The notes below the pieces were generated by a model. It made no database searches and had not been told where the DNA came from. It was given only the letters and a program-made list of their open reading frames with translations. A DNA stretch of 64,000 nt, from assembly GCF_007741495.1 (NCBI RefSeq), contig NZ_CP036262.1, positions 2,418,001 through 2,482,000 of the forward strand. The letters run 5' to 3'. The position numbers were made by a program, and so were the translations under genes. Source of the DNA: Roseimaritima multifibrata. GTDB taxonomy: Bacteria; Planctomycetota; Planctomycetia; Pirellulales; Pirellulaceae. Each line of letters begins with the position of its first letter. The stretch's first letter is position 1. This document shows, in pieces, positions 5,045-37,544 of the stretch.

Positions 5045-5905
5045 ATGGCTCTGAAAGTATTTATCAACGGTGAATTGTTCGACAAAGATGACGCCAAAAT
5101 CAGCGTTTTCGATCATGGCCTGCTGTTCGGGGACGGGATTTTTGAGGGCATGCGTGCCTACAGCGGAAAAGTCTTTGAAATGGGGCCGCACCTAGACCGT
5201 TTGTGGGAATCGGCTCGAGCCATCCATCTGGAAATCCCTGGGACCAAAGATGAAATGGCTGCCGCGGTCAATCAGACCCTGCAGGCGAATGAGTTGAGTG
5301 ATGCCTATGTGCGTCTGATCGTGACACGAGGAACGGGAACATTGGGCCTGGATGCCCACCTTTGCAAGAATCCGCAGGTGATCATCATCACGGATAAAAT
5401 CTCGCTATATCCCGAGAAATTCTACGAAGAGGGCTTGGATCTGGTCACCGCTGCGACCATCCGGAACCATCCTGCTGCCCTTAGCCCACGGGTGAAAAGC
5501 CTGAATTACCTGAATAATATTCTGGCGAAAATTGAAGGAGCCAGAGCCGGTTGCGTCGAAGCTTTGATGTTGAACCACAAAGGAGAGGTCGCTGAGTGTA
5601 CCGGGGACAACATTTTTATCGTTCGAAAAGGAAAACTACTGACTCCGCCGATCGATGCTGGGATTCTGGAAGGGATCACCCGCAACGCAGTCATCCAGCT
5701 GGCCGCAAAGCTGGGGATCGAGTGTTTGGAGCAGCCTTTTACCCGTCATGATGTGTTCGTGTGCGACGAATGTTTTCTCACCGGGAGTGCCGCGGAAGTG
5801 ATTCCCGTTGTCCGGTTGGACGATCGAAGCATCGGCGACGGCAAGCCCGGGCCGATGACGCAACAGCTGCGTAAGGCGTTTACCGCATTGGTTCACGGTT
5901 CCTAG
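5045..5905 (+). CDS. ilvE: Branched-chain amino acid aminotransferase
   Basis: The 286-residue class IV PLP enzyme would interconvert Val, Leu and Ile with their 2-oxo acids. The start MALKVFINGELFDKDDAKIS, then FDHGLLFGDGIFEGMRAY, are characteristic. The PLP lysine is Lys151 in SPRVKSLNYLNN, and the cofactor-binding Glu lies in KGEVAECTGDNIF. The length fits bacterial IlvE of the fold-type IV group (about 290-310). D-amino acid transaminase and aminodeoxychorismate lyase share this fold, but the EGMRAY and KSLNYLNN patterns favour IlvE. ATG 5045 is chosen because the family sequence begins there; the frame extends upstream without similarity. It lies 73 bp after the ABC pair. Confidence 0.9.
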   Translation: MALKVFINGELFDKDDAKISVFDHGLLFGDGIFEGMRAYSGKVFEMGPHLDRLWESARAIHLEIPGTKDEMAAAVNQTLQANELSDAYVRLIVTRGTGTLGLDAHLCKNPQVIIITDKISLYPEKFYEEGLDLVTAATIRNHPAALSPRVKSLNYLNNILAKIEGARAGCVEALMLNHKGEVAECTGDNIFIVRKGKLLTPPIDAGILEGITRNAVIQLAAKLGIECLEQPFTRHDVFVCDECFLTGSAAEVIPVVRLDDRSIGDGKPGPMTQQLRKAFTALVHGS

Positions 5906-5951
5906 ACGCCTCTTCTTGCCCTGCATCTATTGTTTTTACCTTCAAAGTAAT

Positions 5952-7319
5952 ATGAGTTTACCTTCGATGTCCAATTCACCCTCCTCGTCACCAGCGGCTG
6001 CGCACGAAGTCCTGCTCGAAAGAATTGAATCGAAAAAGGCCGTTGTGGGGGTGATTGGACTGGGGTATGTCGGATTGCCGTTGATCGACGCTTTCACAAA
6101 GGCTGGCTTCACTTGCCAGGGGTTTGACGTCGACCCCAAGAAAATCGAAACTTTGGAATCGGGCAAAAGCTATATCAAACATGTCGCAGATACGACGATC
6201 GCCGGCTGGTTGGAAGCGAAGCGTTTTTCAGCGACCGCTGACATGCAGAAACTGTCCGAACCGGATGTTCTTTTAATCTGTGTTCCAACCCCTTTGACCG
6301 ATGCCCGGGATCCCGATCTGAAGTATGTCACGGGAACCTGCGAAGCGATCGCGGCGAATCTAAAACCGGGGCAATTGGTTGTGCTGGAAAGCACGACCTA
6401 CCCGACGACCACTCGCGATGTCATGGTTCCGATTTTGGAATCTAGCGGTCTGAAGGCGGGAAAGGACTTTTTCGTCGCCTACAGTCCTGAACGAGAAGAC
6501 CCAGGTAATCCAAGTTTTTCAGCCGCTCAAATTCCCAAGGTGGTTGGTGGGATCGATGCCCATAGCCGAGACGTGGCGGAGGCGTTGTACGGGGCCGCCG
6601 TTGCCGGCACGGTCACCGTCAGTAGCTGCGAAGTCGCTGAAGCGGCAAAAGTGCTTGAGAATATTTACCGAGCGGTCAACATCGCATTGGTAAACGAATT
6701 AAAAGTTTTGTTTGATGCGATCGATATCGACGTTTGGGAAGTGATTGATGCCGCCAAAACGAAACCTTTTGGTTTCCAGGCGTTCTATCCTGGCCCTGGG
6801 CTGGGCGGACACTGCATCCCAATCGATCCTTTTTACCTTTCTTGGCTTGCAAGAAAACATGGGCAGACGACCCGTTTTATCGAGCTGGCGGGTGAAGTAA
6901 ACACTTCGATGCCTGGGTATGTGATCCGTCGCCTGGCTGAATTCTTGAATGACGCTGCGAAACCGATCAAGGGAAGTAAAATCTGTTTGTTGGGTGTCGC
7001 CTACAAGAAGGACGTGGATGATCCGCGGGAGAGTCCGTCGTTTGTTCTGCTGGAATCCTTGCTGCAGCGTGGGGCGGATCTAACTTATAGCGATCCTCAT
7101 GTCCCCACATTGCCGAAAATGAGGCACCATGATGTCCCTGCGATGGTCAGCCAAGAATTGACGCCCGAATTTTTGGCTCAGCAAGATTGCGTGTTGATCG
7201 CCACCGATCACACGGCGTTTGATTACGAAATGATCGTAAAGCATGCTCAGATGGTCGTTGACACACGGAACGCCACGGTGAAGGTTCTGACCAACCGAGA
7301 TAAGATTCACAAGACTTAA
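5952..7319 (+). CDS. Nucleotide-sugar dehydrogenase (UDP-GlcNAc/ManNAc 6-dehydrogenase type)
   Basis: The 455-residue enzyme oxidises the C6 of a UDP-sugar to the uronate using two NAD+. It has an N-terminal Rossmann motif GLGYVGLP (36-43), a central dimerisation helix region, catalytic Cys288 in GLGGHCIPIDPFYL, and the C-terminal nucleotide-binding domain with LGVAYKKDVDDPRESPS. The GGHCIPIDPFYLSW and YKKDVDDPRESP boxes are those of the WbpA/WecC group acting on N-acetylated hexosamines, more than of UDP-glucose dehydrogenase. It probably supplies a uronic sugar for surface polysaccharide, matching the CapD-like and Wza-like genes further along. ATG 5952 is preferred over a TTG at 5916. Confidence 0.9.
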   Translation: MSLPSMSNSPSSSPAAAHEVLLERIESKKAVVGVIGLGYVGLPLIDAFTKAGFTCQGFDVDPKKIETLESGKSYIKHVADTTIAGWLEAKRFSATADMQKLSEPDVLLICVPTPLTDARDPDLKYVTGTCEAIAANLKPGQLVVLESTTYPTTTRDVMVPILESSGLKAGKDFFVAYSPEREDPGNPSFSAAQIPKVVGGIDAHSRDVAEALYGAAVAGTVTVSSCEVAEAAKVLENIYRAVNIALVNELKVLFDAIDIDVWEVIDAAKTKPFGFQAFYPGPGLGGHCIPIDPFYLSWLARKHGQTTRFIELAGEVNTSMPGYVIRRLAEFLNDAAKPIKGSKICLLGVAYKKDVDDPRESPSFVLLESLLQRGADLTYSDPHVPTLPKMRHHDVPAMVSQELTPEFLAQQDCVLIATDHTAFDYEMIVKHAQMVVDTRNATVKVLTNRDKIHKT

Positions 7320-26366: not shown

Positions 26367-29300
26367 CTAGTTCCAGACCGTTACAACGTCATCGGCAAGC
26401 AAGGCTAGGATATCGTCTTCTTCGTCATCGGATGAAGACGAATCAGCCGTGTAGGTGTTGGCTGCCACGGCGGTGTCGCTGTCCTCTGGTTGTTGCTCCC
26501 AGCCGAGAAGGTTCGGGCTGTCAGCATCCACGTCGTTGGTGGAAAGCGATTCAAAGACGGCGTCGCTGGAAGCACTGCTTGGATTCGACTTGGTAACCAA
26601 CGGAGCGGCTTCGCCGTTTGCGTTGCTGAAGCGAGCTTGTCGGTTGAGGAAGTTGATCACACCCAATGCATCGATTGGCGTGATCGCACTATCACCATTC
26701 ACGTCGGCGAAGAATTTCCGCACCGAACTACCAAACGATTCGCCTTGAGCTACCGAGCGGCTCATCTGGTTCAGGGTATTGATAACCCCTAGAGCGTCGA
26801 TCGGAGAAACGTATCCGTCGGCGTTCACGTCGTACGGATTGGATCCGTTCTGGAACGGTGATTCACCTGCTGCGACGGAGATTTCGATCTCTGCCACATC
26901 AAACAGGATGCGATCGCGATCGACAGGTCCTGGAGGATCGTAAAGCAGAGTGTCCTGGAATGGCGATGAATCGGCTTCGTCACCAACGATTCGCAAAGTC
27001 CCGATCGCATCGGCTTGGAAGAACAGTGTGGCCATCAATTTTGGCTCACCACCAAGCGGGTCTGCACTTCCGCCTGAGTCGATCTGGAAGGCTCCGAATT
27101 CGTTAATCAGCCCAGGAGCGGTTAGGTTTCCAACCGCAGCACCCTCATTGAAATCGGAGGAGAATTCAACATCAAAGCCGAAGTCTGAACCGTCGTTGTT
27201 GGACGGAGTGACCAGGAGGCGGTCGTATAGGACGTCTAGGTAACCGGCGAATACGCCTAGGTCACCGGCCGAAGCACTACGGAGGTCATCTAGGTAGACT
27301 TCTACGCCGAATTCTTGTCCAACCACCAAGCTGTTGACCGGGTTTCCTGCCGTATCAACATACTGGAAGGAGATTCCAACATCGGCTTGGTTGGCGGCGG
27401 CACCAATTGCCACTCGTACTTCTGCGGTGCTTCGGAAACCATCTTCGTCGACGATCAGATACGTGAAACGATCAACCCCAACGACTCCAGCATTGGGCCG
27501 GTAGATCGCTACGTCATCGCTCGGGTCGTTCGGAGTTCCTGCGGTATCAACAATGCTGACGTTTCCGCGAGTCGGGGCCGTGAGGATCCCGAATTCAATG
27601 ATGTCTTTCTGTGACCCTTGTGCGTTCAAAGCCAAGACATCGTTTGTCAGAATATCGAGTTCTGCTGCGTTACCTGGGAGGATTGGATTCCCGTTGGAAT
27701 CGACCGAATCAGGGAATGAGTCGTCGATCGCTCGGGTTTGTGCTCCATTGGGCAAATCGCTGATCTGCAATTCGCCGCTGCCAAGGATGATTCGTTCCAC
27801 GGGAACGACTGTATCTTCACCAAGCAGAATCACTTCGCTTTGTGGCAAATCTGCTGGGTCTGCTTGGAAGGTTGCGACTCCTGCCGAATCCGCTTTCATG
27901 CGAATCGTAAACAGGACGTTCGCGCCGGTCTGGTTAATGTTTGGATCGGTCAAAGCCGAAATCGGCTGAGTCCCACCCACTTCGTTGATGATACCGGGAG
28001 TGCCGGCGTCACCTTGCTGGAATACCGATCCTCCGACGTAAAAGGCACCGAAGTCAATGTCGAAAGGAAACCCGTTGGCTCCTCCGTTGAGCGAGGTTAC
28101 CGAAACCAGTTCATCGGAATACAGCAGGTCAAGGAACGCACTGCCGACCCCTTGGCGAGTGGTGTCCGTCAGTTCGATGTCTTCAACGGATACCTGGACC
28201 AGGAAGTAATCTCCCACCGTCACGTTATCGACCGGAGTCCGGTCGACATCGTCTAGGAAGGCAAAACTGAACTCAACGTCGTTGTTTCCGGGAAGCTGCG
28301 AAGTGGGCAGCATCTTCAAGGTGACTTGGGCGGTACTGGGATTCCCTGCACCATCGATAATCGTATAGCTGAATTGCTCGGTGCCGTTAAACCCGGTCGA
28401 AGGCGTGTAGCGTAATGATTGGCCACCACCAACCAAATCGACTCGTCCGCCTTGATCACCCTGTTCGAAGGAGACGATCGACAGCCCACCATTGATGCTG
28501 GAAATGTCGTTGTCCAGAACGCTCAGCGGGAAGTTCACCGAGTTTTCGGGGACGAGGAACGTGTCGTCCAATGCAAAGGGTAAATCGGTTTGGAACGTGA
28601 CGTTAACGGAAACCACACCTTGGGCTGGGTCACCGTTGCTGTCGCGAATCAGTTCGCCGTCAGGACCTTCGGCGAAGTAGGTAATCGTATCACGGCCAAT
28701 GAACCCGTTGGGCGGCGTGTAAAGGATGCCCGTTCCATCGGTCGTTTGGATTGCCGTTCCCGTTGTGCTGGACGTGTCCAGACTATTCAACTTGAGGGTA
28801 AAGCCGGGGGCCACAAAATCGTTGTCGAGGACGTCAAGAAGGTTCCCCGTGCTGTTCCGGTCAACCCGATAAGTATCGGGCTGCAAAGCGTCGGATGTAT
28901 TCAGAACGGTGAACAGGTGGTCTTCAACTTCTCCTGCATCGGTAGGACCGAAGGAAGCAACGCCGGCTTCCGCGCTGTAACGGAAGCGGCCGACCACGCT
29001 GCCTAGAACCGCGTCAGCGGGAACCGCGATGTCGATTTCGTTAAGACCATTGGCAAGGTTCTGGTCGACGATGACATGTTCGCCCGCGTCATCGAAGCTG
29101 CCGTTGCCGTTGAAATCGATCCAAGCCTGCAGGTAACCGGGCTGACCGGTCGTGTTTGTTGCGGTGATCTGCAAAGTGGCTGTGTCATCACGCCCGAATG
29201 CCGACGTTGCAATTACGCCATCTTCGTCATCGATGACCGTTCCATTGGCCTGCAGGATGCCAGTCAAGTCGTCTGCGTCCGCATTGGCTGAACGGACGCC

Positions 29301-31490
29301 GCCATTGGCGTCCAAGTCGACCGATGCACCGAGGAACAGCCCGGCAACCAAGCCGTGGCTGGCAGCATTGACGCCTACCGTCGATGCGACGTCCGCATCG
29401 CCGTAGTCACGAGCAGGCTGATTGCCGAAGTCTTGCCCAGAAATCGGCTCTCCGGTGAATTGAACAATGTGTTCGCCCGACGCAGGTGTCGTTTGGATGT
29501 ATCCAGGGCCCACCACTTCACGGATCGTGTAAGTCCCGGCGGCATCAAAGTCGAAAGAGTAGCTTCCGTCGGCAGCGGTGATGGCTTGGGGTTCACCCGT
29601 GTCAGGCCAGTCATCGTTGTCCAGGTCGATATACATAAAGACCCCTTCGATGCCCGGTTCCGTGGCTTCACGGAATCCGTTGCCGTTGATGTCGGCAAAC
29701 TTAACACCTGTCACATCGGCACGGATCTGTTCCACTCCAAAATTGATCGCAGCCACGGTCCCTGTTGTAGGGATCACGACGCTTTGCGTCGAAGCGGTGG
29801 TGATCGCCGAATTCGAGGGGACAACCACGCTGACGGTCGTCGCACCAGGAGCTCCATTGATGGTGTAGGTGCCGTCGGAACCGGAGACTGCACGTGGTTC
29901 AAAGGAATCAAATTGGCCGTTTCCGTTGGAATCGACAAAGACGGTGACGCCCGCTAAGCCACTATCGCCAGGTTGCAGTCCGTCTCCGTTAACGTCGCGG
30001 AATACGGTACCCGTAACCGAACCACCAACGGTTCCGGTCGATAGGCCAAACGCGATCGCATCGGCGACCCGTTCATACCCGAAGAATCCTTCAGCCGTGC
30101 TGAACCGGTCATAAACCGGGAATTCTAGATTCTGGTCGTCTTCGGTGCCAAAGATGCCGTCTGGACCAAGCTCGAAATCAAACGCTTGGACAGGGGCTCC
30201 AGGACCGTCGATCATCGATCCAATGTTGTTGTTACCGTCGGTATGGCGGAGACCAAAGGAATGTCCCAATTCATGCGTGACCGTGACCGCAATCGTCTGG
30301 GCAACTAGATCAAGCGTGCTTTGGGCGCCGGAAATAGTGATGCCCGCGGTGTAGGGAAGCACTTGATCAAGAGGAGAGTAAACGATTTCTGAAGTGTCGA
30401 AGTTCCCGATATCGATCGACTCAGAAATGCCCAGCAGGTCTTCTGTGAAAATGTCCGCATTGGTTCCGCCGACGATCACTCGCGTCACGTTCGCAACGCC
30501 AATCGGATCGGCGTGGTCGCGACTGTTGAGAATCGTGATCCCGAACTGACCTGCGATGCCGGTGTTGGCGTAGTCGCCATTACTGCCGTTGACGGGGATT
30601 ACGTCATTGAAATCCTCATGAACGCGAGCCATGATGCGGTCGATCAGGGCATCTTCGTCACGCTGTAGCAGCCCAAAATTGGTGATGTAATCGTACAAGC
30701 TGTCGATCCGGATGGTTCCCGTATTGGGAAGCCCGGTTTCGAGGTCAATCGGATCGATTACCGAACGAGGCCCAACGTAACCGTCAAAATCGACGTACAC
30801 GATTTGCTTCGTGCCAATCGGTTGGCTTTCCATGTACGGACGATAGGCCCGCATGCCTAACGTATAGACGCCGGTGAAGCCGTTGGGGGCTACACGAACA
30901 TAGTAGCGGCCGTCTTCTGGAACCACTTGGGCTCCGGCAACCGTTCCGTTTGTCTGCAGTGGGGAACTATCGGGAAGCAGCAGTGGGTCGTGCTGGTTGG
31001 AATCCATCGCGAACCAGCGACTGCCGTTCTCGTAGAAAACGTCGATCGAGCCTGCACCACCAATGGTCGCGAGGTCCAGGATGTCGCCAGCTCGCAGATC
31101 GACCGCGAAGTAGTCAACGTCTTCGGGCTGTTGAATCGGATTGTTCGTTTGGACCAGCGATAGGGTCCCCGTGACATCCACGATCGGTTCTTGATCCGAC
31201 ATGGTGCCTAGAGGAACTACCTCCGCGCTGAAAATCCCGTTGTTCAGTCCGGTCTGGCCCGACTGCTCCGATTCATTGAATATGAAGGCAGTGACCGAAC
31301 CGATGTTCCGAGGGTTTTCGGTATCGGTAACGACCGCCGCTGGGTTCACATCACTCGCAACGGGAGTAATGCCGGCTGCCAGCAGCTGGCGCGCTTCGAG
31401 ACTCTCCATAATCAAGCGTCGCTTGGACACCATGGACTTGCCCGATTTGGTCTGACGACGACTGGCTTTGTTTTTGGCTGACTTCACCAT
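26367..31490 (-). CDS. Giant secreted multidomain metalloprotease-like protein with LEPRxLL-type motif, cohesin-like and dockerin-like modules
   Basis: At 1707 residues this is by far the longest gene. In order: a basic start with ESLEARQLLAAG (about 29-40), the planctomycete LEPRxLL-type export motif; a PPC-like beta domain (about 100-220); a metzincin-like domain with HELGHSFGLRH (zinc His406, Glu407, His410, His416); two SdrD-B-like domains (GTVFRDVNGDGLQPGDSG; GVKFADINGNGFREATEPG); a GEVED-type domain ending FGPTDAGEVEDHLF (to about 865); two cadherin/Ig-like repeats; two related cohesin-like beta domains (about 1067-1242 and 1365-1537) around another Ig-like unit; two dockerin-like Ca loops (DVNADGYVSPIDALG, about 1552; DVNGDSAITPIDALG, about 1592); and an acidic tail. 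It is probably cell-surface and Ca-dependent. The substrate is unknown. Confidence 0.9.
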   Translation of the reverse strand: MVKSAKNKASRRQTKSGKSMVSKRRLIMESLEARQLLAAGITPVASDVNPAAVVTDTENPRNIGSVTAFIFNESEQSGQTGLNNGIFSAEVVPLGTMSDQEPIVDVTGTLSLVQTNNPIQQPEDVDYFAVDLRAGDILDLATIGGAGSIDVFYENGSRWFAMDSNQHDPLLLPDSSPLQTNGTVAGAQVVPEDGRYYVRVAPNGFTGVYTLGMRAYRPYMESQPIGTKQIVYVDFDGYVGPRSVIDPIDLETGLPNTGTIRIDSLYDYITNFGLLQRDEDALIDRIMARVHEDFNDVIPVNGSNGDYANTGIAGQFGITILNSRDHADPIGVANVTRVIVGGTNADIFTEDLLGISESIDIGNFDTSEIVYSPLDQVLPYTAGITISGAQSTLDLVAQTIAVTVTHELGHSFGLRHTDGNNNIGSMIDGPGAPVQAFDFELGPDGIFGTEDDQNLEFPVYDRFSTAEGFFGYERVADAIAFGLSTGTVGGSVTGTVFRDVNGDGLQPGDSGLAGVTVFVDSNGNGQFDSFEPRAVSGSDGTYTINGAPGATTVSVVVPSNSAITTASTQSVVIPTTGTVAAINFGVEQIRADVTGVKFADINGNGFREATEPGIEGVFMYIDLDNDDWPDTGEPQAITAADGSYSFDFDAAGTYTIREVVGPGYIQTTPASGEHIVQFTGEPISGQDFGNQPARDYGDADVASTVGVNAASHGLVAGLFLGASVDLDANGGVRSANADADDLTGILQANGTVIDDEDGVIATSAFGRDDTATLQITATNTTGQPGYLQAWIDFNGNGSFDDAGEHVIVDQNLANGLNEIDIAVPADAVLGSVVGRFRYSAEAGVASFGPTDAGEVEDHLFTVLNTSDALQPDTYRVDRNSTGNLLDVLDNDFVAPGFTLKLNSLDTSSTTGTAIQTTDGTGILYTPPNGFIGRDTITYFAEGPDGELIRDSNGDPAQGVVSVNVTFQTDLPFALDDTFLVPENSVNFPLSVLDNDISSINGGLSIVSFEQGDQGGRVDLVGGGQSLRYTPSTGFNGTEQFSYTIIDGAGNPSTAQVTLKMLPTSQLPGNNDVEFSFAFLDDVDRTPVDNVTVGDYFLVQVSVEDIELTDTTRQGVGSAFLDLLYSDELVSVTSLNGGANGFPFDIDFGAFYVGGSVFQQGDAGTPGIINEVGGTQPISALTDPNINQTGANVLFTIRMKADSAGVATFQADPADLPQSEVILLGEDTVVPVERIILGSGELQISDLPNGAQTRAIDDSFPDSVDSNGNPILPGNAAELDILTNDVLALNAQGSQKDIIEFGILTAPTRGNVSIVDTAGTPNDPSDDVAIYRPNAGVVGVDRFTYLIVDEDGFRSTAEVRVAIGAAANQADVGISFQYVDTAGNPVNSLVVGQEFGVEVYLDDLRSASAGDLGVFAGYLDVLYDRLLVTPSNNDGSDFGFDVEFSSDFNEGAAVGNLTAPGLINEFGAFQIDSGGSADPLGGEPKLMATLFFQADAIGTLRIVGDEADSSPFQDTLLYDPPGPVDRDRILFDVAEIEISVAAGESPFQNGSNPYDVNADGYVSPIDALGVINTLNQMSRSVAQGESFGSSVRKFFADVNGDSAITPIDALGVINFLNRQARFSNANGEAAPLVTKSNPSSASSDAVFESLSTNDVDADSPNLLGWEQQPEDSDTAVAANTYTADSSSSDDEEDDILALLADDVVTVWN

Positions 31491-34683: not shown

Positions 34684-34953
34684 CGTTTGTAAGTCATCGA
34701 ACGAGAGTTACGGATTCAAGAAGACCTCTAGTTCTAGCATACTCCCGCGGTCGGTTCTCGCGTGGCGCGGACTTAAGGCAGCAATCTGATCGCTCAAAAA
34801 CGTCCGTAAATCTGAATCTGGGCTTTCGGTTTCCTTGCCATGGGAAAATCGCTAGCACTGTCAGGCACCTGAACCGTTAGGCGGGTACGATGGAGAGGAA
34901 GGCTATCCTATTTGTTGCACTAGTCGGTTCCTCTGCTGTTGAGACGATGCACC

Positions 34954-36756
34954 ATGTTTTTATTTGGACCTTTTTCTGAAGCTCGAAAAGAGGTCACCAT
35001 TCCGGGCATTCTTGCTTGGCGGGTGGCGTCTTGCTTCCTCGCTCTTTTGGTCCCCCTGTTGATTGTGGTCGTGGGGTTGATCACCGAATTGCTGGGGCCA
35101 GGAATACTGACGACAAAGGTTCAGCTTGGTCGCGGTTTAGTCGTCCCCGTTCCCGAGGTGTTGATTCAGCAGCCCGCTTTGACGCAGTTGCTTTGGTTGA
35201 CGGCTTTTGCCGTTGGGGTCGCGTTCGTTTTTGCCCTCCTGCTATGGCGGACCCATTTAGGGCTGCTCCGTCGTGGACGTTTGACGACCGAGAAATTCCA
35301 TCAGCGGATTTTGCAGCGCATCCTCGATAAGGCCCAGGTCGAAGGCGCAAGTGCTCAGCGATCACGCGTCCAAGCATTGATCGAACGCGATCTGCCCGCA
35401 TTAAATATCGGATTGATCTCCTGGTGGCGATCCTGTCCACGGATCGCGATTGTGTTGGCCTGTTGTCTGGGATTGGCTTTATTGGTCGATGTTTGGTTGG
35501 CTTTGCTAGCGATTATCGGCGGGATTTTAGTTTGGCGGTTGCGGATGTGGGTCAGCCGTCGTGAACCGGCACAAGGTGCAGGGTGGGAGGTTGCTCATTC
35601 GCAGCAAGACCTTGTGGAAACCGTCCGGCAGGCGCCCCTCTTGGCCCGTTTGCAATCAAGGCAAACGGTCAGCGATGTGTTTGCGGAAAAACTGCTTCGG
35701 TTGCGCCGCCAGCAAGCGGCCGTGGATGCCCATCATTCTCGCGTTTTGCCTGTGGTCGCTTTCGCCGGTTTGCTGGCGACTTTGTTGGTGTTGCTTGCCT
35801 TTGGCGTCAACCGTTTGAGCAGTGCCGATGGACTGGGAATGTCCGCAGGCGTTGTGCTGGGGCTTTCGTTGGCCGGAGCGGCCGTCGCGGCGGCTCGGAT
35901 ACTTCGGTTTTATAAAAATATCGTGTTAGCCCAAGACGCAGCGGCAAACCTTTATCGCTTCTTGGCGGGTGAAGAAGATCAACAGATGGGGGATTTGGTC
36001 GGGATTACCGGAATCCGGTCGGCCGTTGAATTAAGCAATGTCACGCTCCGAAACGATTTGGGAAAAGACGTCCTTACCAGCCTGACTTTACGGTTGGAGC
36101 CGAAATCGGTGGTCGCTTTGTTGGGGACCGATACGGTTTCCACGGCTGCACTGATCGAAATCTTGCAAGGGTTTGGCAAACCGACCGAGGGGACGGTTGA
36201 AATCGATGGGATCTCGGTTAGCGAAATCCATCCCAACTCCCTTTCGCGGCAGGTGTTTTGGGTTGGAGCCGATGGCCCGATTTGGAACGGTACGATTGCC
36301 GAAAACCTGTTGGGTATAGACGCCGTCGGCGGGGACGAAGCGGTTCAGGAAGTCTTGCGTCGGGTCGGAATCTACGAACAGATCTCGGAACTTAGCGATG
36401 GGATGGCAACGGTGTTGTCGCCCGACGATACAAGTCTTGATGGGACGACGCGCTATGCGATCGGCGTCGCCCGTGCGCTGCTGAGAAAGCCTGCGCTTGT
36501 CGTGGTTCAAGAACCGGATACGGTCGAAGGGCTAGCCGATGACGAGCCGCTGGACGCTTTGCGTTTCTTAGCCCACAGCGGAGCGATCGTGATCATGTTG
36601 CCCCGACGTTTGAATTCTTTGCGAACCGCCGATCGCGTGGTCCTTCTAAATGGAAGCCGCCTAGCAGGGGAAGGGAGCCATGAAGATTTGCTAGCAGGAA
36701 GCGACCTGTATCGCCACCTGAACTACGCTCTTTTCAATCCCTACCGAAACCTTTAA
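34954..36756 (+). CDS. ABC-exporter-like protein with degenerate ATPase motifs (pseudo-ABC)
   Basis: The 600-residue protein has the exporter layout: membrane domain (segments near LALLVPLLIVVVGLITELL, LLWLTAFAVGVAFVFALLL, IAIVLACCLGLALLVDVWLA, VVAFAGLLATLLVLLAFG) then a nucleotide-binding-like domain from about residue 345. That domain keeps the fold markers (VELSNVTLR; EGTVEIDGISVSEIHP; RVVLLNGSRLAGEGSHEDLL) but not the ATPase residues: Walker A is GTDTVSTA at about 391 (no Lys), the signature is DGTTRYAIGVARALL at about 496 instead of SGGQRQR, Walker B is VVVQEPD (Gln519 for Asp), and the switch His is missing in IVIMLPRRLN. It probably cannot hydrolyse ATP. ATG 34954 is preferred to TTG 34939. 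The frame is intact, so this is not a pseudogene. Confidence 0.85.
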   Translation: MFLFGPFSEARKEVTIPGILAWRVASCFLALLVPLLIVVVGLITELLGPGILTTKVQLGRGLVVPVPEVLIQQPALTQLLWLTAFAVGVAFVFALLLWRTHLGLLRRGRLTTEKFHQRILQRILDKAQVEGASAQRSRVQALIERDLPALNIGLISWWRSCPRIAIVLACCLGLALLVDVWLALLAIIGGILVWRLRMWVSRREPAQGAGWEVAHSQQDLVETVRQAPLLARLQSRQTVSDVFAEKLLRLRRQQAAVDAHHSRVLPVVAFAGLLATLLVLLAFGVNRLSSADGLGMSAGVVLGLSLAGAAVAAARILRFYKNIVLAQDAAANLYRFLAGEEDQQMGDLVGITGIRSAVELSNVTLRNDLGKDVLTSLTLRLEPKSVVALLGTDTVSTAALIEILQGFGKPTEGTVEIDGISVSEIHPNSLSRQVFWVGADGPIWNGTIAENLLGIDAVGGDEAVQEVLRRVGIYEQISELSDGMATVLSPDDTSLDGTTRYAIGVARALLRKPALVVVQEPDTVEGLADDEPLDALRFLAHSGAIVIMLPRRLNSLRTADRVVLLNGSRLAGEGSHEDLLAGSDLYRHLNYALFNPYRNL

Positions 36757-37544
36757 CGCAACAGCGACTGACCAACACAGAGCAGGATCAACAGCCAACT
36801 GCTCTGGTCGATGCGTTTTAGCATTTCGGCTTTTCGGCTTCGCTGAACCTTGATCCACGACTTGTGAACGTGGATGGGGTCGGCTTCTGAAACGGCGACG
36901 GCGCGTGACTGCAACCGGTTTGCCGCGTAGTAGCCAGCCATGATTAACAACGCGAATGCGGTTAGGGTCATCGTTTCGGTTACCGTCAGGGGGGAAGAAA
37001 CAACGGCTCCAAACTGAATGGGAACCTTTACCGAAGATCCCGGAGCCGGTTGCAAGCTGGAATTAATGGTTTGCAACGTAAGTTTTGAAGTTGTGAGTTC
37101 GTTCTGCCAGTATTCTCTTTGGCGATCGATTTCGCTTGAATCGGTTTCGTGGAAGGTGGCCTGGACCACTGCGGACGTGGTTTCGGTTTCCTCGATCGGT
37201 TTGGTTTGCCGCAGATAAAATTCGGCAGCCTCGCATTTCCATTTCGCCTGATAATACGCATCCGGTTTTTCGGTGATCGTGGTCTCTTTATATTTCGTCA
37301 ACCAAGTCCGAATCTCCGCGACCGCGGGACTTTCCAGCGGGACGAGGCAGGTGGCTTTATCGCTTCCGTCCGCTGCCGTCCAAACGACAGTTTGCATCTG
37401 GTGACGCCCCCCCAGAAGACTCCAACCAACCAGTAGGACGGCGCCTCCCAGCACGAGAGTCCGTCGGGTCGTGGTGGGGATACTCCAGGATTTGCCCTGA
37501 AGACGTTTTTGCCAAATCTGGCGAACCATGGTGAGATAACGCAT
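36753..37544 (-). CDS. Unknown membrane protein with extracytoplasmic coiled region
   Basis: The 263-residue protein is not recognised. It has a basic N-terminus, a membrane segment (LVLGGAVLLVGWSLLGG, about 31-47), a polar region rich in Glu, Thr and Gln (about 50-180) that looks helical, a second segment (MTLTAFALLIMAGYYAA, about 190-206) and a hydrophobic C-terminus (SWLLILLCVGQSLL). The layout, a helical arm between two membrane segments, recalls Wzz-type chain-length regulators or membrane-fusion arms, but no diagnostic motif supports that. Its stop codon interlocks with the stop of the pseudo-ABC gene (bases 36753-36756), so the two are tail to tail. Confidence 0.7.
   Translation of the reverse strand: MRYLTMVRQIWQKRLQGKSWSIPTTTRRTLVLGGAVLLVGWSLLGGRHQMQTVVWTAADGSDKATCLVPLESPAVAEIRTWLTKYKETTITEKPDAYYQAKWKCEAAEFYLRQTKPIEETETTSAVVQATFHETDSSEIDRQREYWQNELTTSKLTLQTINSSLQPAPGSSVKVPIQFGAVVSSPLTVTETMTLTAFALLIMAGYYAANRLQSRAVAVSEADPIHVHKSWIKVQRSRKAEMLKRIDQSSWLLILLCVGQSLLR

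Follow-up and report, generated by a model that had tools for sequence, protein, structure and literature searches.

ABC exporters are defined by their use of ATP. In ABC dimers, each ATP site is composed of the Walker A and Walker B motifs of one half and the signature motif of the other. In several exporters, such as TM287/288, TAP, MRP1, CFTR and SUR, one of the two sites is degenerate, so that ATPase residues were lost within an exporter fold and the gene was kept. Exporters of this kind are well known (excerpt of PMC7756269), and the lack of the catalytic glutamate has been described as the hallmark of degenerate sites (excerpt of PMC7544095). Here we describe a gene from a window of 64,000 nucleotides (the whole stretch of DNA that was analysed) in which the predicted exporter fold is kept and the ATPase motifs are gone in a different pattern. 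Among the matches listed in the open-licence PMC literature, we found no publication on an exporter family that has lost all ATP motifs or on this gene, and the terms 'ABC transporter' and 'permease' are absent from the main text of an essential-gene paper on Planctopirus limnophila (PMC10632474).

An exporter gene that lost its ATPase motifs

The gene lies on the forward strand (34954..36756) and is an intact open reading frame with an ATG start, encoding 600 amino acids plus a stop codon, without internal stop or frameshift. An alternative TTG start at 34939 would lengthen the protein to 605 residues. In a Pfam scan the 600-residue protein matched ABC_tran (E 1.1e-8) and did not match ABC_membrane. 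The ABC_tran score of 39.6 bits is the second lowest of the 59 matches in its own genome (lowest 34.4, third lowest 76.7), and the best NCBIfam model, TIGR01842 (type I secretion exporter), scored 120 bits where the cut-off is 510. The AF2 model is that of a full exporter, with membrane helices and a nucleotide-binding domain (NBD), at a mean pLDDT of 83.1 and a pTM of 0.65. The helices of this model place the transmembrane domain at approximately residues 18-338 (35005..35967, forward strand), and both Pfam and the model place the NBD fold at approximately residues 355-600 (36016..36753, forward strand). When the model was searched with Foldseek, TM287/288 was the best match (E 3.3e-25, TM 0.65/0.67) and MsbA was also among the top ones; a sequence-profile search of the PDB returned P-glycoprotein, TM287/288 and MsbA among its best matches. 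The AF2 and Foldseek results show the B-type architecture, in which a single chain carries the transmembrane domain and, after it, the NBD fold. The gene product is predicted to be a full-length ABC exporter of the B type, similar in fold to MsbA and TM287. The original prediction of a full-length, intact frame that keeps the exporter fold agrees with the unbroken 600-residue frame and, at the level of structure prediction, with AF2 and Foldseek. A gene of 263 amino acids on the reverse strand (36753-37544) lies tail to tail with the exporter gene and overlaps its stop by 4 bases; it has no Pfam family above cut-off and joined no cluster in the neighbourhood comparison.

Alignment and motif counts located the losses on the forward strand of the window copy. 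Walker A reads GTDTVSTA (residues 391-398, 36124..36147), with Thr397 at the position of the lysine. The Q-loop glutamine is replaced by Ala439 (36268..36270), the signature reads LDGTTR (residues 495-500, 36436..36453), the Walker B aspartate is replaced by Gln519 (36508..36510) and the switch histidine by Arg551 (36604..36606). The position of the catalytic glutamate is retained as Glu520 (36511..36513). The Walker A lysine, the signature, the Walker B aspartate and the switch histidine had all been named as absent, and residue by residue they are; the retained Glu520, the lost Q-loop glutamine at 439 and the class-wide extent of the loss were missing from that list. The loss of the motifs is thus established from the sequence. 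Because each ATP site needs motifs of both halves, neither a homodimer nor a heterodimer with a canonical half would contain a complete site, which makes it probable that the protein works without ATP of its own. Judging from the motifs, it very probably has no ATPase activity.

Extent of the loss, descent and selection

At E 1e-30 the exporter was matched in 98 of 199 genomes of its own family (f1), with one copy each; in G033 the hit is a canonical paralogue. A copy from Roseimaritima sediminicola is 57% identical to the window exporter, and it is through this copy that f1 was placed in the Pirellulaceae, class Planctomycetia. A profile search at E 1e-90 matched 98 of 148 class genomes, of which 51 were read for motifs. 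In genomes without a match, which include genera g19 and g43 of f1 and the order families f2 and f3, the gene may have been lost or may be present as a more diverged copy. In total, motifs were read in 134 members from seven family codes (f1, f4, f5, f105, f108, f109 and f111), namely 86 of the 97 own-family hits, all 27 from f4, one from f5 and 20 chosen for family spread; the canonical paralogue and 11 own-family hits, one of them a fragment of 171 amino acids, were left out. As controls we used 24 canonical exporters of the phylum, consisting of 20 weaker phylum hits together with L002, L003, L079 and L167, with L004 set aside as degenerate. The f2 hits L167 and L254 and 18 weaker phylum hits have intact P-loops and are canonical exporters; L251 and L257 depart from the canonical state only at the second glycine of the signature. 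These hits supplied controls.

Alignment with the relatives turned up no orthologue with canonical motifs: GxxxxGK[ST] and SGG were each found in 0 of the 134 members. Gly396 was likewise kept in none and the Walker B aspartate (position 519) in three, with intermediate counts for Gly391 (66), Gly498 (41), Ser496 (33), Gly497 (9) and Ser/Thr398 (9). Glu520, Arg507, Arg552 and Asn451 were each kept in 134/134. In the same columns, the controls kept Gly396 and the lysine, aspartate, glutamate and histidine in 24/24, as well as Asn451 (24/24), Arg507 (24/24) and Arg552 (23/24). The remaining positions differ between families. His551 was kept in 27 members (11/86 in f1, 1/27 in f4, 15/21 in the others), Gln439 in 19 (15 of the 21 outside f1 and f4) and Lys397 in 13, all among the 21 others (f5, f108 and f111; 0/86 in f1, 0/27 in f4). 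A family-specific tail close to the C-terminus, LYRHLNYALFNP in the window copy (36706..36741, forward strand), was located by a pattern that was written after viewing members and matches 126/134 of them versus 0/24 canonical controls. With a pattern from this tail we found 47 titled loci, including Rhodopirellula, Rubripirellula, Stieleria and Roseimaritima, all of which are degenerate (SGG 0, Walker A lysine 0, Walker B aspartate 1, Glu520 47); they overlap the genomes of the 134 members and were not added to them.

Members of f5, f108 and f111 (L165 and the L311-L330 set) often keep the Walker A lysine, the Q-loop glutamine or the switch histidine and resemble intermediate stages; such members could still bind nucleotide. 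Because of these rows the losses look staged, with the P-loop context, the signature and the Walker B aspartate apparently going first and the rest later in f1 and f4, an order read from present-day rows.

In trees made with a quick method after removal of the motif columns, with the canonical rows as root, a single branch separated all 43 sampled members from the 24 canonical rows, with an SH-aLRT support of 100 in two taxon sets; one long row was flagged (L058). A false grouping through convergent motif loss was rejected, as the group stayed after the motif columns had been removed. Families f1, f4 and f5 each form one group and f108 needs two changes, so that the branching largely mirrors the families, in keeping with vertical inheritance. 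A dN/dS could be computed for 18 of 21 disjoint close pairs and ranged from 0.026 to 0.220, with dS above 1 in 8 of the 18, where the ratios are rough. In 15 of the 16 pairs with both domains computed (the exception being L051/L052), dN/dS was lower in the NBD than in the membrane domain, pointing to the tighter constraint on the former in the relatives. By these ratios the gene is under strong purifying selection. The proposal that the protein was selected for a non-hydrolytic role gains support from this selection and from a loss common to seven family codes. The shared pattern across families and the dN/dS also rule out recent local decay. A decaying pseudogene could be suspected in the window copy, where a single catalytic motif residue remains, but the open frames, the pattern common to seven family codes and the low dN/dS leave this explanation with hardly any credit.

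The neighbouring NosY-like permease

Clustering of the neighbouring frames at 116 loci revealed one strongly recurrent partner, a divergent ABC-2 permease. Of 131 loci that could be tested, 93 have it directly upstream of the exporter and in the same orientation: 52/84 own-family loci with enough upstream sequence, 25/27 of f4, 1/1 of f5 and 15/19 further loci of f105, f108, f109, f111 and f5. Among these 19 it was not found in L313, L318, L320 and L323; L322 ends at a contig edge and stands outside the 19. In the titled loci the permease is directly upstream in 35/46, a count kept apart from the 93/131 as the genomes overlap. The lineage of the window itself is without this adjacency: the permease is encoded at G000:C1:1836404-1838140, away from the exporter, and is 54% identical to the L114 copy. 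For 32 own-family loci without adjacency, the permease is still present in 30 of the genomes, and none was found in G109 and G176 (82 and 89% complete). The permease occurs in 186/199 own-family genomes and in 121/392 phylum genomes at E 1e-30. Since the exporter was matched in 98 of the same 199, the permease does not need the exporter, and because the permease is nearly universal, co-occurrence says little. What the adjacency describes is gene order, not contact. Even so, the recurrent gene order suggests that the exporter-fold protein is a partner of the permease, and we consider a partnership of the two proteins slightly favoured. The earlier idea of a regulatory partner fits such a neighbour. 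A reverse-strand frame of 1707 amino acids in the window (26367-31490), whose start holds LEARQLLAA, has same-cluster counterparts upstream of the exporter in L184 and L091.

The likeness of the permease to NosY, the permease of NosDFY, comes from the top Foldseek matches and a weak sequence match (E 0.093). Its model has a pLDDT of 74.4, and the Foldseek list is led by NosY chains with weak scores (best E 0.013, none under 0.001); for the best six NosY chains, the TM by target length is 0.53-0.62. There are two differences. The permease of the window's family is extended at its N-terminus by a part that includes a beta domain, and, whereas NosY is paired with the ATPase NosF within one complex (according to structure entry titles), the upstream permease has no ATPase beside it on its own strand. 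No cognate ATPase gene was found in that position in 20 permease neighbourhoods, 19 of which are without an adjacent exporter. ABC ATPase-like frames were present in two of the 20. The one in L226, 3 kb away, came from a scan requiring both P-loop and signature; the one in L228, added by a profile scan, is next to the permease on the opposite strand. The L228 frame (5045-6562, reverse strand) is the only adjacent case among the 20. A driving ATPase for the permease is therefore unproved. In four distant phylum genomes (L232, L233, L234 and L236) a frame that we take to be metallophosphatase-like lies directly downstream of the permease relative.

Possible roles and comparison with known exporters

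Our preferred reading, to which we assign a probability of roughly 0.45, is that the exporter-fold protein is a non-hydrolytic partner of the NosY-like permease in which ATP use was given up early in the class. The exporter fold would have abandoned ATP before or early in the radiation of the class and would have been held by purifying selection since. The subunit would then serve as a fixed, ATP-insensitive scaffold or gate for the ABC-2 permease, and any ATP-driven motion would be imposed on the permease by an unlinked ATPase. We infer the physical contact, the scaffold or gate role and the unlinked ATPase. A bolder version, which we regard as doubtful, would have a complex derived from ABC proteins only, made of a NosY-like permease that lacks a dedicated ATPase gene and an ATP-less exporter, formed in or before the class ancestor, inherited vertically, with no hydrolysis by either subunit and with the glutamate repurposed.

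Food for comparison is also provided by a second, separate degenerate ABC exporter family, found in the same genome (G000:C1:298074-300197, reverse strand; loci L004/L259) and matched in 72 of 119 family genomes; among the fetched loci, its members differ in their motifs. Across the 119 genomes (taken as G000-G118, of which the last 27 are assumed and lie outside the matches listed), 38 carry both families, 9 only the window family, 34 only the second and 38 neither, a positive association (odds ratio 4.7, Fisher p 2.6e-4) that is uncorrected for kinship. An obligate partnership between the two was rejected, as the association is not strict and the second gene sits with HlyD-like and TolC-like genes, frames of which adjoin the copy in this genome.

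Several other roles may be considered. The protein could be a sensor or regulatory subunit, comparable to SUR in KATP channels, whose exporter fold would bind a ligand or a lipid and pass the signal on to a partner without transporting anything itself. A predicted fold under strong constraint without ATPase motifs, and the recurrent neighbour gene, would suit this role. SUR, however, retains a consensus site for ATP, by which it senses nucleotides; no complete site exists here, nor did a channel-type neighbour stand out in the clustering of the 116 loci, and we judge a sensor to be unlikely. We are still more reserved about the possibility that the exporter-fold dimer acts by itself as a channel, a lipid scramblase or a transporter that needs no ATP. 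The exporter membrane domain is there in the model, and the many family genomes with a permease and no exporter match indicate that the two are separable, but a simple channel would not need a dead NBD that is more tightly constrained than the membrane domain, and the conserved gene order with the permease speaks against it as well.

The original prediction had also proposed the silent half of a heterodimeric exporter, whose other half would be encoded elsewhere. One-site degeneracy is well documented, as cited above (PMC7756269, excerpt), canonical exporters are encoded in the same genome, and the second degenerate family shows a positive association with this one. Nonetheless, with Walker A, the Walker B aspartate and the signature all lost, both composite sites would be incomplete; moreover, the recurrent neighbour is a permease, no second exporter is found among the recurrent neighbours and the association is not strict. 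The silent half is thus disfavoured, and we regard it as improbable. A new activity at Glu520, with the old ATP pocket binding or acting on something else, would account for a glutamate kept in 134/134 members while the preceding aspartate is kept in three, in a position whose loss typifies known degenerate sites (PMC7544095, excerpt). However, the glutamate may be structural, given that Asn451, Arg507 and Arg552 are equally invariant and are near-invariant in the controls, and such an activity appears very improbable. The partnership with the permease is the reading that we retain.

Were the kept machine confirmed, a clade of ABC exporters without the motifs would amount to a natural separation-of-function experiment. 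With its ATP domain under tighter constraint than the membrane domain, it would reveal roles of the NBD besides hydrolysis. For an understudied bacterial class, the protein is also a conserved and so far uncharacterised part of the membrane for which a concrete candidate partner can be named. The window protein has the membrane domain and the NBD fold in common with TM287/288, MsbA and P-glycoprotein; these hydrolyse ATP, whereas in the window protein Walker A, the Q-loop glutamine, the signature, the Walker B aspartate and the switch histidine are all lost. Known degenerate exporters are altered at one site of the two, whereas a dimer containing a member of the window family would have no complete site. 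The former lack the catalytic glutamate (PMC7544095, excerpt), which in the window family is precisely what stays. Compared with known exporters, what is new here is therefore a reversed pattern that would affect both sites of any dimer and is common to a class.
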